Origin: a virus
Direction: 5' to 3' (one strand)
IMG/VR virus record: IMGVR_UViG_3300033153_010576
Location: 1-35,865 of that record
Length of the DNA stretch: 35,865 bases
The position numbers were made by a program, and so were the translations under genes. The notes beneath the pieces are model-generated. The model was given only the letters and a program-made list of their open reading frames with translations. It was not told the origin of the DNA and searched no databases. Positions 29,848-35,865 of the stretch are shown in pieces; position 1 is the first letter of the stretch; every line of letters begins with the position of its first letter.

Positions 29848-30770
29848 TAACTATCCTCCTTGAACTTTTTAATTAAAGCTCTAACTGGTACATTTGAAAT
29901 TATAACTCTTTTCTTTTTTATAAAACCAAGTAAATCTACTCTTCCAAACAGACCGTCTGTTTCAAAAGTATACGAGTCCAAACTACTGGTATTAAAGTTT
30001 TTCTTCCCCTTTCTTAAAATAACTGAATGCTCCCTTAAGTCTGGAAGTTCTTCAATGTAAGCTCTCATTTCAGCCTTTAACTGCTTATTATACATCATAA
30101 CAGTTCCTGGAGTTACTCCAATAAGTTTTGCAATCTCAACTTGTTTTCCTGGAAGTTTAATTTCTGGATTATCCCTTAACCACTGTGCTACTCTACCAAA
30201 CTTTTTTCTAGGTCCAAACTTTTTACCTTTCATAAAAGCACCAGATTGTGCAACATTCATTTCACTTTCACGACCTAAAACTTTCATAGCTTTACTTACA
30301 GTTTTATGATCAATCCCAAGTGCTCTTCCTGCTGCTCTGCAGGAGCCAAACCTTTTATGGGCTGCAGCAATTTTACCAATACTTAAACTATTTTTAACAG
30401 ACTCCTGAATTGCATAATTAACATCGGCCTTAATGTATTGTCTAAACTCCTGAAAGATCCTATATAAAAGATCTTCATTTACTTCTTTTTCATAATCAAA
30501 ACCTCCATTATCTTCTTCCTCCGTACTCTTGATAGTTTCTCTAAATCTTCCGGAATTACACTTAGCAATTTTTATTAATGGATTAAATAAATCCGACCAG
30601 GCATCCTCAAGAGTATAAGGAAATTCACTTGTAAGTTTAATATTAAGCTTCTTGTCCAGTAAAACCGGAGCAGGTGTGTTTTTAGGAAAAATATCTAAAA
30701 TATCTTTCATCATATTTAGAGAATTTCCAACTTTGTGAAAACGCTTTTTAAACTCTGTCCAACTAATCAT
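29847..30770 (-). CDS. Putative DNA-binding protein with two helix-turn-helix segments
   Basis: 307 aa from the ATG at 30770, which overlaps the upstream stop by eight bases; the open frame extends further but inside the neighbouring gene. Residues about 131-165 (IAAAHKRFGSCRAAGRALGIDHKTVSKAMKVLG) and 207-235 (EIAKLIGVTPGTVMMYNKQL) each read as a helix-turn-helix with the G-ID/G-VT turn. Residues 83-100 are acidic. It follows the DUF3987-like ATPase and the polymerase, so a role in origin binding, replication control or late-gene activation is plausible. No recombinase or nuclease motif seen. Confidence 0.7.
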   Translation of the reverse strand: MISWTEFKKRFHKVGNSLNMMKDILDIFPKNTPAPVLLDKKLNIKLTSEFPYTLEDAWSDLFNPLIKIAKCNSGRFRETIKSTEEEDNGGFDYEKEVNEDLLYRIFQEFRQYIKADVNYAIQESVKNSLSIGKIAAAHKRFGSCRAAGRALGIDHKTVSKAMKVLGRESEMNVAQSGAFMKGKKFGPRKKFGRVAQWLRDNPEIKLPGKQVEIAKLIGVTPGTVMMYNKQLKAEMRAYIEELPDLREHSVILRKGKKNFNTSSLDSYTFETDGLFGRVDLLGFIKKKRVIISNVPVRALIKKFKEDS

Positions 30771-32148
30771 CTTTAGATTCCTTCTCCTCTTTGTTATGTT
30801 GCCATTTGTACTCTTCATCACCTTTACCAAGAGATCTTCTTTGATACTCTCCATGGTAATAAATGATTATTTTTCCTTCTTGTCGTAACTGTTCAATTGC
30901 AATATCAAGTTCTTTAACTAAGACCTTACGGTTTTGCATAACAACTCTTCTACAAACAAAACCTTTTGCCTCTATGTAGTCGCTAATTTTGTTTATAATC
31001 TTTTGAAAATCAGAAGCTACAAACTCATGAATAAGACTAACAGAAACACTGTAAGTTCTCTTCAAAAGATATTCAGCACTCTTAAGATCCTGCAATGAAA
31101 TTTCTTTAGTTGTATTATATCGTTGTGCAGAAAAAAGAAAAGCCAACTGACGAAGCTTAATGTCATACCTTGCCTTAAATCCTGCTTCACTTACATTATC
31201 TTCAAGTTCTTTAATATATCCGGCATACCATTTATCAAAATACTTATCTGCTTCGTCACTAAAATCATAGCCACCTTTAATATTTTCTGCTATCCATGCA
31301 AGTCCTTGCTGCAAGTGCTTTTTCCCTGGGCCATTCTTAACTTCAATTGGCTTCGAATATCGTCTTTCATTAACTGGACAGTAAACAATATTTGTTCTAC
31401 TTAAAAAACCATCATTTGAAGCACCAATTGGAATGCTCTCATGAAATTGTTGTGGGGTACAAGCTGCAAGAAGAGTGGTGTGCATATTTTTAAGAACTGT
31501 TTTTTCTCTTGCAAAAGTATCCGTACTCCACTCTTCATCACAATCATAAAGCTTAAGTAAATTAGTTATCATTCCTTCATTATAGGAAGCTTTACTCAAA
31601 AGTGAAGCAAGCTCACTAGCAATAATTAAAACCTCAGAAGTATACTTGTAAGTTAAGGGAGTTCCATTCTTTTTTTTCAATGGCTTACCTTTTTCATTAA
31701 CTAAAGGATAAGATCCAGGTTTAGGTTGTAATGTATCAAGAAGTTTTTCTGGAGTTACCTTACCTGCTATGACATGAAGTTTTTTAATTTCTTTCATGTT
31801 GGGGTCTGTAATAAAAGCAGAAAGGTTCTTTAAAAGTTTTGCAGTAATATTAACAGACGTACTTTTAAAAGCTCTCCCAGGTGGACCAACAAGAATGGTA
31901 TATAAATTGATATAAAGTTTATTAGGATCATACCATCGAAACCAGGCTTCCCTCTTAATCAGGGCACTCATAACTGTGAAACATCCCCAAAGATGAAAGA
32001 TTGTAGGCACACCAGTTCCCCTGGTTGCCAAGATAAAATCTGTAATAAACCCTTTCTCTTTAGGAATACAAAGATCAAAAGGTTCAGGTTCCCAAAATTG
32101 TTCCTCCTTTGGAATCTCTTCAAAAGGAACAGGTGGTTTTTGTTTCAT
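30763..32148 (-). CDS. DUF3987-type P-loop ATPase, probable replication helicase/primase-like protein
   Basis: 461 aa. Walker A GPPGRAFKST (residues 88-97) follows the LYINLYTILV strand, a candidate Walker B VLIIASELASL lies at 173-183, a sensor-like TTLLAACTP at 224-232, and a likely arginine finger in GFLSRTNIVY (R251). This is the plan of DUF3987 proteins, found in many phage replication modules and related to RecA/DnaB-like ATPases. The C-terminal region (residues 380-461) is a winged-helix-like domain with a basic tail. The ATG at 32148 has AAGGA upstream and lies ten bases after the polymerase stop. It is the only helicase candidate in the window. Confidence 0.75.
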   Translation of the reverse strand: MKQKPPVPFEEIPKEEQFWEPEPFDLCIPKEKGFITDFILATRGTGVPTIFHLWGCFTVMSALIKREAWFRWYDPNKLYINLYTILVGPPGRAFKSTSVNITAKLLKNLSAFITDPNMKEIKKLHVIAGKVTPEKLLDTLQPKPGSYPLVNEKGKPLKKKNGTPLTYKYTSEVLIIASELASLLSKASYNEGMITNLLKLYDCDEEWSTDTFAREKTVLKNMHTTLLAACTPQQFHESIPIGASNDGFLSRTNIVYCPVNERRYSKPIEVKNGPGKKHLQQGLAWIAENIKGGYDFSDEADKYFDKWYAGYIKELEDNVSEAGFKARYDIKLRQLAFLFSAQRYNTTKEISLQDLKSAEYLLKRTYSVSVSLIHEFVASDFQKIINKISDYIEAKGFVCRRVVMQNRKVLVKELDIAIEQLRQEGKIIIYYHGEYQRRSLGKGDEEYKWQHNKEEKESKDD

Positions 32149-32158
32149 AATTTTTCCT

Positions 32159-34822
32159 TCAAATTTTATATTCTTCAAGCTCTCCCCAGCTAGGGCCAAT
32201 CTCAAAGTCAACTTTAAACGATCTTTCAACTCCAAAGATCTTCCTTGGCTTTGTCATAACTTTCTTAACTATAGTAGCAACTTGCTTAAGTTCAGTCTTT
32301 GGAATCTCTAACATCATGGAGTCATGGACACTACCAATTAACTTAGCTACGTAGCCTTTCTTTTCAAGCTCTTTTTGCACATCAATAAGTGCCAAGCTCA
32401 TAAGATCTCCAGCAGTACTTTGAATAGGGAAGTTAAGGCCTTCTCGTAAAATATTATTTTCATCACCTAAGAAATATCGTTTCCTCCCAAAACCATTTAC
32501 AAGACTTTTTTCCTTAGTAAGAGTTTGCTTAGTTTGTTCATACCACTTTCTGTATGCAGGATGCTCATTAAAATATTTAGTATCCATTATCTTAAACTCT
32601 TCATAAGTAACAGTAATTGTAGGATCTTTAGTTAGTAGTCTTTTATACATACCTCTAAGACCACCACCATAGTTACGACCAAAAATATAAGTCTTCATAC
32701 AGGATCTTTTAGATTGCCAATCAGGAGCATCTTTTGTAATTTTAAAGATCCTTTTAGTGTTTTCATCATGAGGGTTAAGATCATTTTTAATCATATCAAT
32801 TATCACATTATCATTAGAAGCATAAGCAATGATTGCAAGTTCCAGTCCAGAAAAATCTGCATTAAAAAATATATTACCCTCATTAACTACAAAGATATGC
32901 TTTGCAACAGAAGGTATATTCTGACCGTTGGGATCATTTGAACTTAATCTTCCAGTACTTGTTCCATGAATTTTATATTTTGGATGTACTCTAGAATTAG
33001 CATCAAGATCAAATTTAGTATAAGTTGTAAGAAGTTTATTAGTTTTTCGAAATTTCATTATGATTATTAAAGCATCTTTAACTCTCACTAATTCATGATG
33101 TTCACAAGTATGTTTATATTGAGGACGTTTAAGATTATCTATAGTATCCATGCGATCCTTAACTCTTATAAAATATTCTGTAAATGCTGCTTCGTCCGTA
33201 GATATATCTCCACCATCAGTTTTTGCAAAGGAACTACCTACAACTCTTAAAGGTTTAAGCTCAGTAATTAAAGTATGTTTCCTCGTAAGCTCTGCAAATT
33301 TCTTGGTATCCTTTCTTTTCTTACACCCTTCAACAAAATATTCTGCATACTCTTTTTTAACTTTCTCACTGCTCTTTGGAGGAACTCCAAAAAATAAAAA
33401 CCTTAAATGTTCAATAGAAGTAATCTTAAAAACTTCTGGAAGTTCCGTAAACTCACTCATACCTCTACTTAAAAAAGCAACTTCTACAATTAATTCTTTT
33501 TGCCACTTACTAAGTTTCTTTTGGTCAATCTTAATTCCGTTCATTATCATTGCAACAACAGGTTTAATTAAAGGAATGGAAATATTTCTATAAATATGGT
33601 AAGTATCATCTTCTTTAAGTTCTTTAAGAAGAGGTTTTAAAATTTGTGGAATTACAACACAGTCTCTTGCATTATACTTACGAGCATCCTCTTCTTCCAT
33701 ATCAGTTATTTTGCATTCCCTAGCTTTAAAAATATTTTTCCAATAAGGAGTTTTTCCATAAACAGAAGTGATATACCCTAGGGTATGAGGAAGTTCTGCA
33801 TTTCTTACATGGTGTGCAAGAAAAGTATCTTCAGTAACATTCTTTACTGGATAACCTTTTTCAAGTAAAAATGGAACATCAAACAAAGCATTCTGCCAGG
33901 CAGTAGGACACTTTGCTAAAATATCCTTTAAAGCTTTCTTAACTAATTTAGATTCACCATTCACAAATTGTTGATAACCTCCCTTTAAAAGTCTTGCAAC
34001 AACAATACAATCACTCTCACTTGTAGCCATTCCAATACAGTAAACTTCTCCTTTACTTGCAGAAAGACCAGTAGTTTCAATGTCACAACTTACAAGTTGT
34101 TTATCCTTAACAACCTTATCTCGAAATTCTAAAATCTCCTTTACAGTGGGAAACAGATTAAAATTTTCTTTAATTTTTTTATATCCTTTTATAACAATTT
34201 CTTTACATTTAATAAAATCACTTACCCATGTAGGTTCCTGATGTCGATTACCTTTAAAAATAAATTTAGGATTAAACGTGGGAACAATTACAAGATCTTT
34301 AATTATTTTTTTAAACTTACTCTTATCCGGTTGCTGTTCTTCTTCATCCCGAATCTTCCAATTAGTCTTACTTCTCCAAAGATCTCTAAGTACAACAGAT
34401 CCTCTCATTTGCAAAAGGGCAACATTAATTCTTAACATCTTCATTGCAGAATCCCCAAGAGGAATAAAAATTTTAACACCTTTTTCTTTCTTGAGAAACT
34501 CAAGCTCAGCTAAGAAACCTTTCCGACAACACTTAACAGCTTGGTCAATATCATCTCTCCACATTCCGGGTGGGACTTTACAGACAAGTGCATTTGTTTT
34601 CCATACCCTGCTTTTCCTAATATTTGCTTGACCTAGAGCATAGTAAAGATACCCGGAGTATTCATTTACAAAAGGCTCATTTCCTGCAACATCTTTAAAT
34701 AAAGGGTAGTCACCAATAAGAGCATAACTACAAGGTTCATCCGGACCTTTACCAAAAATTTTAACTTCTCCATTTAAAGGACATTCTTTACATTTAGATA
34801 TCCCTCGACGACTGAATCTCAT
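32159..34822 (-). CDS. Family A DNA polymerase with N-terminal UDG-like Fe-S domain
   Basis: 887 aa. Residues 1-205 match family 4 uracil-DNA glycosylases: four Fe-S cysteines C11, C14, C81, C98 (CKECPL, TNALVCK, KCCRKG), GDYPLFKDVAGNEPFV in the place of GExPG..E..G.PFVG, and PTFNPKFIF in the place of PTxHPS. The catalytic His is Asn184 here. Proofreading motifs are intact: DIETTG (D247/E249), N311..D315, Y383..D387. Polymerase motifs A (ADFSGLELAI, D656), B (KRSCMKTYIFGRNYGG, 705-720) and C (VHDS, D834) are present. The start has AAGGAG seven bases upstream. The main replicative polymerase. Confidence 0.93.
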   Translation of the reverse strand: MRFSRRGISKCKECPLNGEVKIFGKGPDEPCSYALIGDYPLFKDVAGNEPFVNEYSGYLYYALGQANIRKSRVWKTNALVCKVPPGMWRDDIDQAVKCCRKGFLAELEFLKKEKGVKIFIPLGDSAMKMLRINVALLQMRGSVVLRDLWRSKTNWKIRDEEEQQPDKSKFKKIIKDLVIVPTFNPKFIFKGNRHQEPTWVSDFIKCKEIVIKGYKKIKENFNLFPTVKEILEFRDKVVKDKQLVSCDIETTGLSASKGEVYCIGMATSESDCIVVARLLKGGYQQFVNGESKLVKKALKDILAKCPTAWQNALFDVPFLLEKGYPVKNVTEDTFLAHHVRNAELPHTLGYITSVYGKTPYWKNIFKARECKITDMEEEDARKYNARDCVVIPQILKPLLKELKEDDTYHIYRNISIPLIKPVVAMIMNGIKIDQKKLSKWQKELIVEVAFLSRGMSEFTELPEVFKITSIEHLRFLFFGVPPKSSEKVKKEYAEYFVEGCKKRKDTKKFAELTRKHTLITELKPLRVVGSSFAKTDGGDISTDEAAFTEYFIRVKDRMDTIDNLKRPQYKHTCEHHELVRVKDALIIIMKFRKTNKLLTTYTKFDLDANSRVHPKYKIHGTSTGRLSSNDPNGQNIPSVAKHIFVVNEGNIFFNADFSGLELAIIAYASNDNVIIDMIKNDLNPHDENTKRIFKITKDAPDWQSKRSCMKTYIFGRNYGGGLRGMYKRLLTKDPTITVTYEEFKIMDTKYFNEHPAYRKWYEQTKQTLTKEKSLVNGFGRKRYFLGDENNILREGLNFPIQSTAGDLMSLALIDVQKELEKKGYVAKLIGSVHDSMMLEIPKTELKQVATIVKKVMTKPRKIFGVERSFKVDFEIGPSWGELEEYKI

Positions 34823-35033: not shown

Positions 35034-35055
35034 CAATCACTCCTTAACTCATTAT

Positions 35056-35244
35056 TTAACATGGGTAGCCCTCATGAATATCATCCGGCTTTGATCTATG
35101 AACATGGAAAGATTCTTGATACATTTCACAAGCCTCATTCATACAAACATAAATATCACCCTCTATATGTCCGTCTTGATGTTGTGCAATTCTTCCCCAA
35201 TAATCATGATAATCTAATTCTTTTTCACAATATAGACATTCCAT
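35056..35244 (-). CDS. Small zinc-ribbon protein, 62 aa
   Basis: The product starts MECLYCEKELDYHDYWG and continues YVCMNEACEMYQESFHVH. The Cx2C at residues 3-6 and the Cx4C at about 34-39 form a zinc ribbon, with extra His/Asp residues nearby. Short proteins of this type recur in phage early regions. The start follows GGGAGG. It lies between the MazG-like gene, which it directly follows, and the 79-aa gene. Confidence 0.75.
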   Translation of the reverse strand: MECLYCEKELDYHDYWGRIAQHQDGHIEGDIYVCMNEACEMYQESFHVHRSKPDDIHEGYPC

Positions 35245-35865
35245 TTAATCCTCCCTTAACTCATTATATTTCATCTTTAATTCTATGTGTTTTTCTATGT
35301 CTATATTTTCTTGTTTGCATAAACATAATAATTCACTAAGACTAATTGATAGATATTCTATTCCTAAAGGGTGACAATCTTCTACAGAGTAATTAAAATT
35401 AAGCAATCCTAATGACACGCTAATCAATGTTTCATCAACAGTTTGTGCCAAACACTCACTAAAGTATATTAGTTTTTCACCAATCCCATAATACCCACAG
35501 ATAGAAAGTATAGTTATTATGATGTCGGCTAGCTCAAAAGGAAATTTATTTTTTAAATTCTCTTCAAATATTTGTATAAATTGTTTGTTATATCTATTAG
35601 TCATAGCGCTACTAGCATACCCGACAAATCTATTATAAATTTCACGGCTATTTATATTTTCCAAGGTTATTCTATAGATTTTAAATGCTTTTCTAGCCTC
35701 TGCCACCTCTTCAATAACATCCATTATTAGTTTTGATGGTGGGATATCTTGATCTATTCTTGAGCCTTTACAATCGGGGCATGGAGTGTCATATCTAGGA
35801 TATCCAAAATTAAGCCTCTCCCCATCACATCTATGACACTTAGGAAAAAACCCTCTCTTAATTGC
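35245..35865 (-). CDS. Zinc-finger/MazG-like protein, 5' end outside the window
   Basis: The frame is open to the right edge, giving 206 residues without a start. The first 47 visible residues carry a DnaJ-like zinc finger: CHRC (10-13) and CPDCKGSR (29-36). From about residue 48 it resembles MazG nucleotide pyrophosphohydrolases: EEVAE (EExxE), ELAD (ExxD) and a C-terminal EKHIELKMKYNELR. The gap between EExxE and ExxD is about 56 residues, longer than usual. An internal ATG (35724) has no ribosome binding site, so the finger is part of the gene. MazG proteins hydrolyse NTPs, dNTPs or (p)ppGpp-like nucleotides. Confidence 0.75.
   Translation of the reverse strand, partial: AIKRGFFPKCHRCDGERLNFGYPRYDTPCPDCKGSRIDQDIPPSKLIMDVIEEVAEARKAFKIYRITLENINSREIYNRFVGYASSAMTNRYNKQFIQIFEENLKNKFPFELADIIITILSICGYYGIGEKLIYFSECLAQTVDETLISVSLGLLNFNYSVEDCHPLGIEYLSISLSELLCLCKQENIDIEKHIELKMKYNELRED

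Follow-up and report, generated by a model that had tools for sequence, protein, structure and literature searches.

The window, a linear virus record of 35,865 bases that was analyzed over its whole length, encodes a family-A DNA polymerase whose N-terminal uracil-DNA glycosylase (UDG)-like domain has Asn at the position of the catalytic His and is the most constrained domain of the protein in the one genome pair compared. We consider that there is about an even chance that this domain is a UDG pseudoenzyme, which would have lost efficient excision and be kept as a DNA-holding tether or processivity arm, or as a permanent structural component of the holoenzyme. The genes and domains concerned are the following.

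32159..34822, minus strand: family-A DNA polymerase, 887 aa, with UDG-like, 3'-5' exonuclease and polymerase domains (ORF, Pfam, AF2 model)
34208..34822, minus strand: N-terminal family-4-type UDG-like domain, aa 1-205 (Pfam, phmmer, profile, structure match)
33533..34102, minus strand: 3'-5' exonuclease domain, aa 241-430 (invariant alignment columns; RNase_H_2)
32180..33076, minus strand: family-A polymerase domain, aa 583-881 (Pfam DNA_pol_A; invariant alignment columns)
30763..32235, minus strand: DUF3987 primase/helicase-like replication protein, neighbor of the polymerase gene (phrog_14296, E 1e-30)
35245-35865, minus strand: pyrophosphatase (MazG-type, phrog_9236) with N-terminal CxxC pairs, upstream of the polymerase and open at the window end

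The polymerase shows the UDG-PolA fusion architecture, with the UDG domain at the N-terminus followed by the 3'-5' exonuclease and the family-A polymerase. The interval 34208-34822 that the first-pass annotation gave for the UDG-like domain is exact, as it encodes aa 1-205 of the 887-aa ORF 32159-34822 on the minus strand. Pfam matches were obtained for DNA_pol_A at aa 583-881 (E 6e-56) and for an RNase-H-like exonuclease (RNase_H_2) at aa 247-349. The AF2 model of the full-length polymerase has a pLDDT of 92 and a pTM of 0.88, and many predicted phage polymerases are similar to it; structure comparison shows that its residues 216-887 resemble Klenow-type and Pol theta polymerases (Z about 30). 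The exonuclease residues D247, E249, D315 and D387 and the polymerase-domain residues D656, K710, Y718 and D834 fall in invariant alignment columns and are intact. They correspond to residues that are catalytic in family-A polymerases. A 28-nt sequence occurs as an imperfect direct repeat (79%) at 35035-35062 and 35247-35274, close to gene starts on the upstream side of the polymerase, and the two copies are possibly regulatory.

Several lines of evidence confirm, at the level of sequence and predicted fold, that aa 1-205 form a family-4-type UDG domain. Pfam UDG (PF03167) matches aa 32-200 with an E of 2e-4 and 21.8 bits, slightly below the 24.3 cut-off, and the same site reaches 25.3 bits, above this cut-off, in the genome-wide search. 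The domain matches the Thermus UDG 1ui0 in phmmer (E 2.7e-5), and a profile built from 31 domains of the window family matches the T. maritima UDG at E 4e-47. The domain model has a mean pLDDT of 94.4 and superimposes on 1vk2 (Z 21.7) and 1ui0 (Z 21.6) with an rmsd of 2.4-2.6 Å over 176-177 residues. Because phmmer, the family profile and the fold agree, a chance resemblance is excluded, and the translation likewise rules out a wrong reading frame. The proposal that a viral PolA carries a family-4-like UDG domain of the Fe-S type is therefore upheld by profiles, fold and aligned cysteines, the cluster itself being putative. The residues on which its interpretation depends are listed below.

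34781..34792, minus strand: C11-X2-C14, the first two putative [4Fe-4S] ligands, aligned with the family-4 UDG cluster cysteines
34700..34714, minus strand: motif I GDYPL, aa 37-41, where GE(A/G)PG is expected (translation and alignment)
34670..34672, minus strand: F51, conserved at the position of F54, a uracil-pocket residue of Thermus UDGa (alignment; role from PMC5387724)
34592..34594, minus strand: N77, equivalent to the uracil-recognizing N80 of Thermus UDGa, kept (alignment; role from PMC5387724)
34580..34582, minus strand: C81, third putative cluster ligand (alignment)
34526..34528, minus strand: C99, fourth putative cluster ligand, adjoining C98 (alignment)
34265..34273, minus strand: motif II N184-P185-K186 where HPS is expected, with Asn at the catalytic H155 position (translation and alignment; identical in L002, the closest relative)

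C11, C14, C81 and C99 all align with the four family-4 cysteines, an alignment of residues from which we infer that the domain may bind a [4Fe-4S] cluster. The annotated family-4 spacing holds less well than the cysteines themselves, with C81-X17-C99 against X15 in the Thermus UDG, and by its position C98 could serve as an alternative ligand to C99. The two motif changes that had been noted, HPS to NPK at Asn184 and GExPG to GDYPL, are both read directly in the translation and the alignment. H194 is the sole His within the first 215 residues, and thus no other His is present in the active-site motifs. Thermus UDGa was mapped onto the window domain by hand, position by position, on the phmmer alignment, with residue roles taken from PMC5387724. 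In motif I and its vicinity E41 corresponds to D38, G42 to Y39, G44 to L41 and E47 to D44; in motif II and beyond H155 corresponds to N184, S157 to K186 and R161 to K190. F54 and N80 are conserved as F51 and N77, and the equivalent of N89 is missing (G86 or M87).

These replacements make efficient family-4-type excision by the window domain very unlikely, judging from published mutants of Thermus UDGa. The H155S mutation lowers k2 by more than 3 orders of magnitude and reduces Km only slightly, E41Q and G42D leave no binding affinity to U-DNA, and N89A lowers k2 almost six-fold (PMC5387724). The mutants studied differ from the changes in the window, which are H to N, E to D and G to Y, and the domain may even be completely inactive.

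UDG families 2 and 6 are active glycosylases. Both naturally lack the motif-II His (PMC5387724), and therefore the loss of this residue alone is no proof of lost excision; the probable loss of excision proposed by the first-pass annotation is supported, by the replaced His together with the H155S kinetics, for efficient excision. That the domain is still active as a glycosylase, its mechanism or substrate being altered in a way comparable to families 2 and 6, seems to us quite improbable. The motif-II Asn does recur in other fusions (NPN in L046, NPA in L076 and L077), F51 and N77 are kept, and selective constraint is strong. However, the water-positioning motif-I Asn of family 2 (GINPG) is absent from GDYPL, the N89 equivalent is G86/M87, and three of the five motif-I positions are altered along with motif II. 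A second, compensating UDG was not found, as each of 29 records, those of the window and L002 included, yielded one UDG match.

We then consider the distribution of these changes among relatives. Phage records searched with the window UDG domain alone gave no matches, and relatives were therefore gathered with the whole polymerase and from alignments. Alignment-led scans of viral contigs yielded dozens of UDG-PolA fusions, and a further fusion, in a bacterial metagenome bin (L120), has canonical motifs. The polymerase of L002 is 90% identical to that of the window and has the same motifs, including N-P-K. In a motif table of the fusions, for which the ends of L049, L073 and L075 were read from separate alignments, the His is replaced by N in the window, L002, L046, L076 and L077, by D in L030, L041 and L042, by Q in L024, by A in L033, and by S in L073, L078, L100 and L110. 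A maximum-likelihood tree was built for 40 fusions from their exonuclease-polymerase part, with the UDG columns excluded. On this tree at least nine changes between His and non-His are required, an approximate count since several deep branches are long and poorly placed. The window belongs to a well-supported clade of 25 rows, within which five separate replacements stand among neighbors that have His; these five are firmer than the nine. They occur in the window pair, L024, L033, L030 and L041/L042, to N, Q, A or D, and the domain is retained each time. That His was probably lost and not gained is concluded from standalone family-4 enzymes, in which His is canonical, since the counts of changes alone do not give the direction.

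The converse of the window state is found in L026:4001-4600 and L040:4001-4645, where all four cluster cysteines are gone and GEAPG and HPS are canonical; parts of the enzyme can thus disappear one without the other, with the fold preserved. At the polymerase N-terminus of L041 and L042 (from about 4001) the UDG domain is reduced to a still detectable fold, in which the motifs are GDYPS and DQR and the cluster cysteines are missing. In the polymerase of a Desulfofustis phage (L046:2177-2700) the UDG domain lacks most cluster cysteines and carries NPN, apparently an independent Asn replacement. Other observations concern the polymerase genes themselves. L011:6760-7620 (same contig as L021) encodes a vir526-type polymerase with an in-frame, intein-like insert of ~280 residues in the polymerase domain, and the 1,297 aa ORF of L020 may carry another intein. 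In L025:3830-8325 (658 + 281 aa) and L028:3950-6623 (619 + 278 aa) two ORFs share the polymerase between them, a pattern suggesting that an intron or a mobile insertion interrupts the polymerase domain. Finally, the canonical UDG-PolA of phage ctfzr933 (L050:1-2600) adjoins an annotated pyrimidine hydroxymethylase and a thymidylate synthase, neighbors hinting at modified-base DNA.

Selection was estimated from one genome pair, the window and L002. The dN/dS is 0.066 for the UDG domain (bootstrap 95% 0.028-0.129), 0.146 for the exonuclease and 0.182 for the polymerase domain. The UDG dN/dS equals or exceeds that of the polymerase domain in 0.75% of the bootstrap resamples, and that of the exonuclease in 4.9%. 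With the lowest dN/dS in the protein, the degenerate domain is not decaying. Selective erosion of the active site relative to other conserved positions of the domain was not significant (Fisher P 0.16). These values bear on whether the domain is a passive structural remnant that serves polymerase folding or solubility and has no role with DNA. Active-site and cluster residues do disappear independently in relatives, and 27 of the 84 phage PolA ORFs of the set, some of them truncated, have no detectable UDG domain, as might be expected of a remnant. We nevertheless hold this explanation to be improbable, given the lowest dN/dS of the protein, the strong basic charge, and the retention of cluster cysteines and pocket residues beyond what a spacer would need.

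The retained pocket also bears on the suggestion that the domain became a uracil or DNA reader, perhaps letting the polymerase sense template uracil. Such a reader of uracil or modified bases would bind flipped uracil without excision and signal template damage to the polymerase, as an analog of the uracil pocket found in archaeal family-B polymerases. It would fit with the conservation of F51 and N77 in both the window and L002, with the strong purifying selection on the domain, and with the Km of Thermus UDGa, which a His-to-Ser change leaves almost unchanged (PMC5387724). On the other hand, the E41 and G42 sites, where the tested substitutions abolished U-DNA binding, are now D38 and Y39, a bulky Tyr replacing Gly, and N89 is lost. 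Of 10 lineages without His, 5 retain the N77 equivalent, compared with 25 of the 26 rows that have His, although rows are not independent. A trimeric-type dUTPase (PF00692) was not found in the window or the L002 record, both possibly incomplete, and no second UDG was found in either. MazG was also searched. The MazG-type pyrophosphatase upstream of the polymerase was rejected as a marker of dUTP metabolism, as it was not found in the L002 record or in most relatives, and there is thus no conserved link.

Uracil sensing thus has thin support, from F51 and N77, and is opposed by Y39/D38, by the loss of N77 in half of the His-less lineages and by the fact that no PF00692 dUTPase was found in the window or L002. 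We give this reading a small but real chance. In the comparative data, a non-catalytic domain that engages DNA in general fares better than a uracil sensor, a reader being possible and less likely. More specifically, a silenced Fe-S UDG might act as an on-board base reader that pauses or redirects synthesis at template uracil or a modified base, possibly gated by cluster redox, a proposal to which we assign little probability. If true, this viral base reader would parallel the uracil pocket of archaeal PolB, with an unrelated fold as its basis.

The repeated loss of the catalytic residue, the kept fold, the highest constraint in the protein and a charge that is the most basic of 40 domains make a non-catalytic DNA-engaging or structural arm the best explanation. 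The net charge of the window UDG domain is +14, the highest among the 40 domains compared, a value that partly mirrors an AT-rich, lysine-rich genome (34% GC). The intact catalytic residues of polymerase and exonuclease beside the altered UDG domain also speak for a tether, whereas the kept uracil-pocket residues F51 and N77 speak against a pure one, which would not need them. In the proposed scenario, an ancestral family-4 uracil-DNA glycosylase would have been fused to a phage family-A replicative polymerase and the fused domain would have lost efficient base excision, the cluster-type scaffold and strongly basic character staying in place. The domain may then hold DNA beside the polymerase. 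Vaccinia D4 is a precedent that is direct in kind, with an analogy of role only; it is a separate subunit, a family 1 UNG, and still catalytically active. D4 has no Fe-S cluster. With A20 and E9, this UDG-fold protein takes part in viral replication as part of the processivity factor, and processive synthesis is independent of its glycosylase activity (PMC4450493).

Comparison with known systems places the window domain with family-4-type UDGs, while separating it from each of its relatives. It resembles Thermus thermophilus UDGa (1ui0) and Thermotoga maritima TM0511 (1vk2) in its fold (Z 21.6-21.7), its four cysteines and its F54 and N80 equivalents. It differs from them in GDYPL, the missing N89 equivalent, Asn for H155, Lys for S157, and its fusion to a polymerase. 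UdgX is a family-4-like UDG relative with a similar fold (Z about 21), but the window lacks the KRRIH loop with its nucleophilic, cross-linking His and has GDYPL in place of GEQPG. PDB entries of family-4-like UDGs still bear the name 'phage SPO1 DNA polymerase-related protein'. SPO1-type family-A polymerases (phage phi18, Okubovirus) have the same order of UDG, exonuclease and polymerase domains, with a phi18 UDG match at E 4e-21. Unlike the window domain, the SPO1-type domain lacks the cluster cysteines, keeps the His (HPN) and has Ser for the uracil-recognizing Asn. The SPO1 type, cited in the first-pass annotation as a precedent, is thus one for the architecture and not for the His-less, cluster-keeping state of the window.

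Two polymerases are closer in other respects. The structure of the phiLo family-A polymerase (9qhs, released 2026), a phage PolA, has been solved and shows a UDG-like fold close to the N-terminus. The window domain superimposes on this fold with a Z of 15.9 and an rmsd of 2.4 Å over 154 residues, and the profile gives a match to residues 13-174 (E 2e-14); the phiLo polymerase has 1,142 residues, unlike the 887-aa window polymerase. The vir526 DNA polymerase (Methanomicrobiales virus, BK063670) shares the architecture and the gene order beside a phrog_14296 primase, with about 33% identity in an alignment over 99% of the protein. Unlike the window, vir526 has canonical GEAPG and HPS motifs, and its domain is therefore probably an active glycosylase.

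UDG-PolA fusions in SPO1-type phages are already known, as is a solved phage family-A polymerase with a UDG-like fold (9qhs). In open-access full text we found no paper treating the UDG domain of phage UDG-PolA fusions, no phiLo polymerase paper, and no description of the cluster-keeping, His-less state, of its recurrence or of its strong constraint. Among viral polymerases with a fused UDG domain, the catalytic residue of that domain has been lost repeatedly, and the window lineage keeps the domain under strong selection. The unexplained SPO1-type UDG-PolA architecture thus becomes testable, in terms of what use a UDG fold is to a replicative polymerase once excision is unneeded. For a direct comparison, nature offers a canonical form in vir526 and an altered one in the window, both of the same architecture. 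In this virus of microbes, the domain has probably been given a new use within the replication machinery, that of holding DNA.
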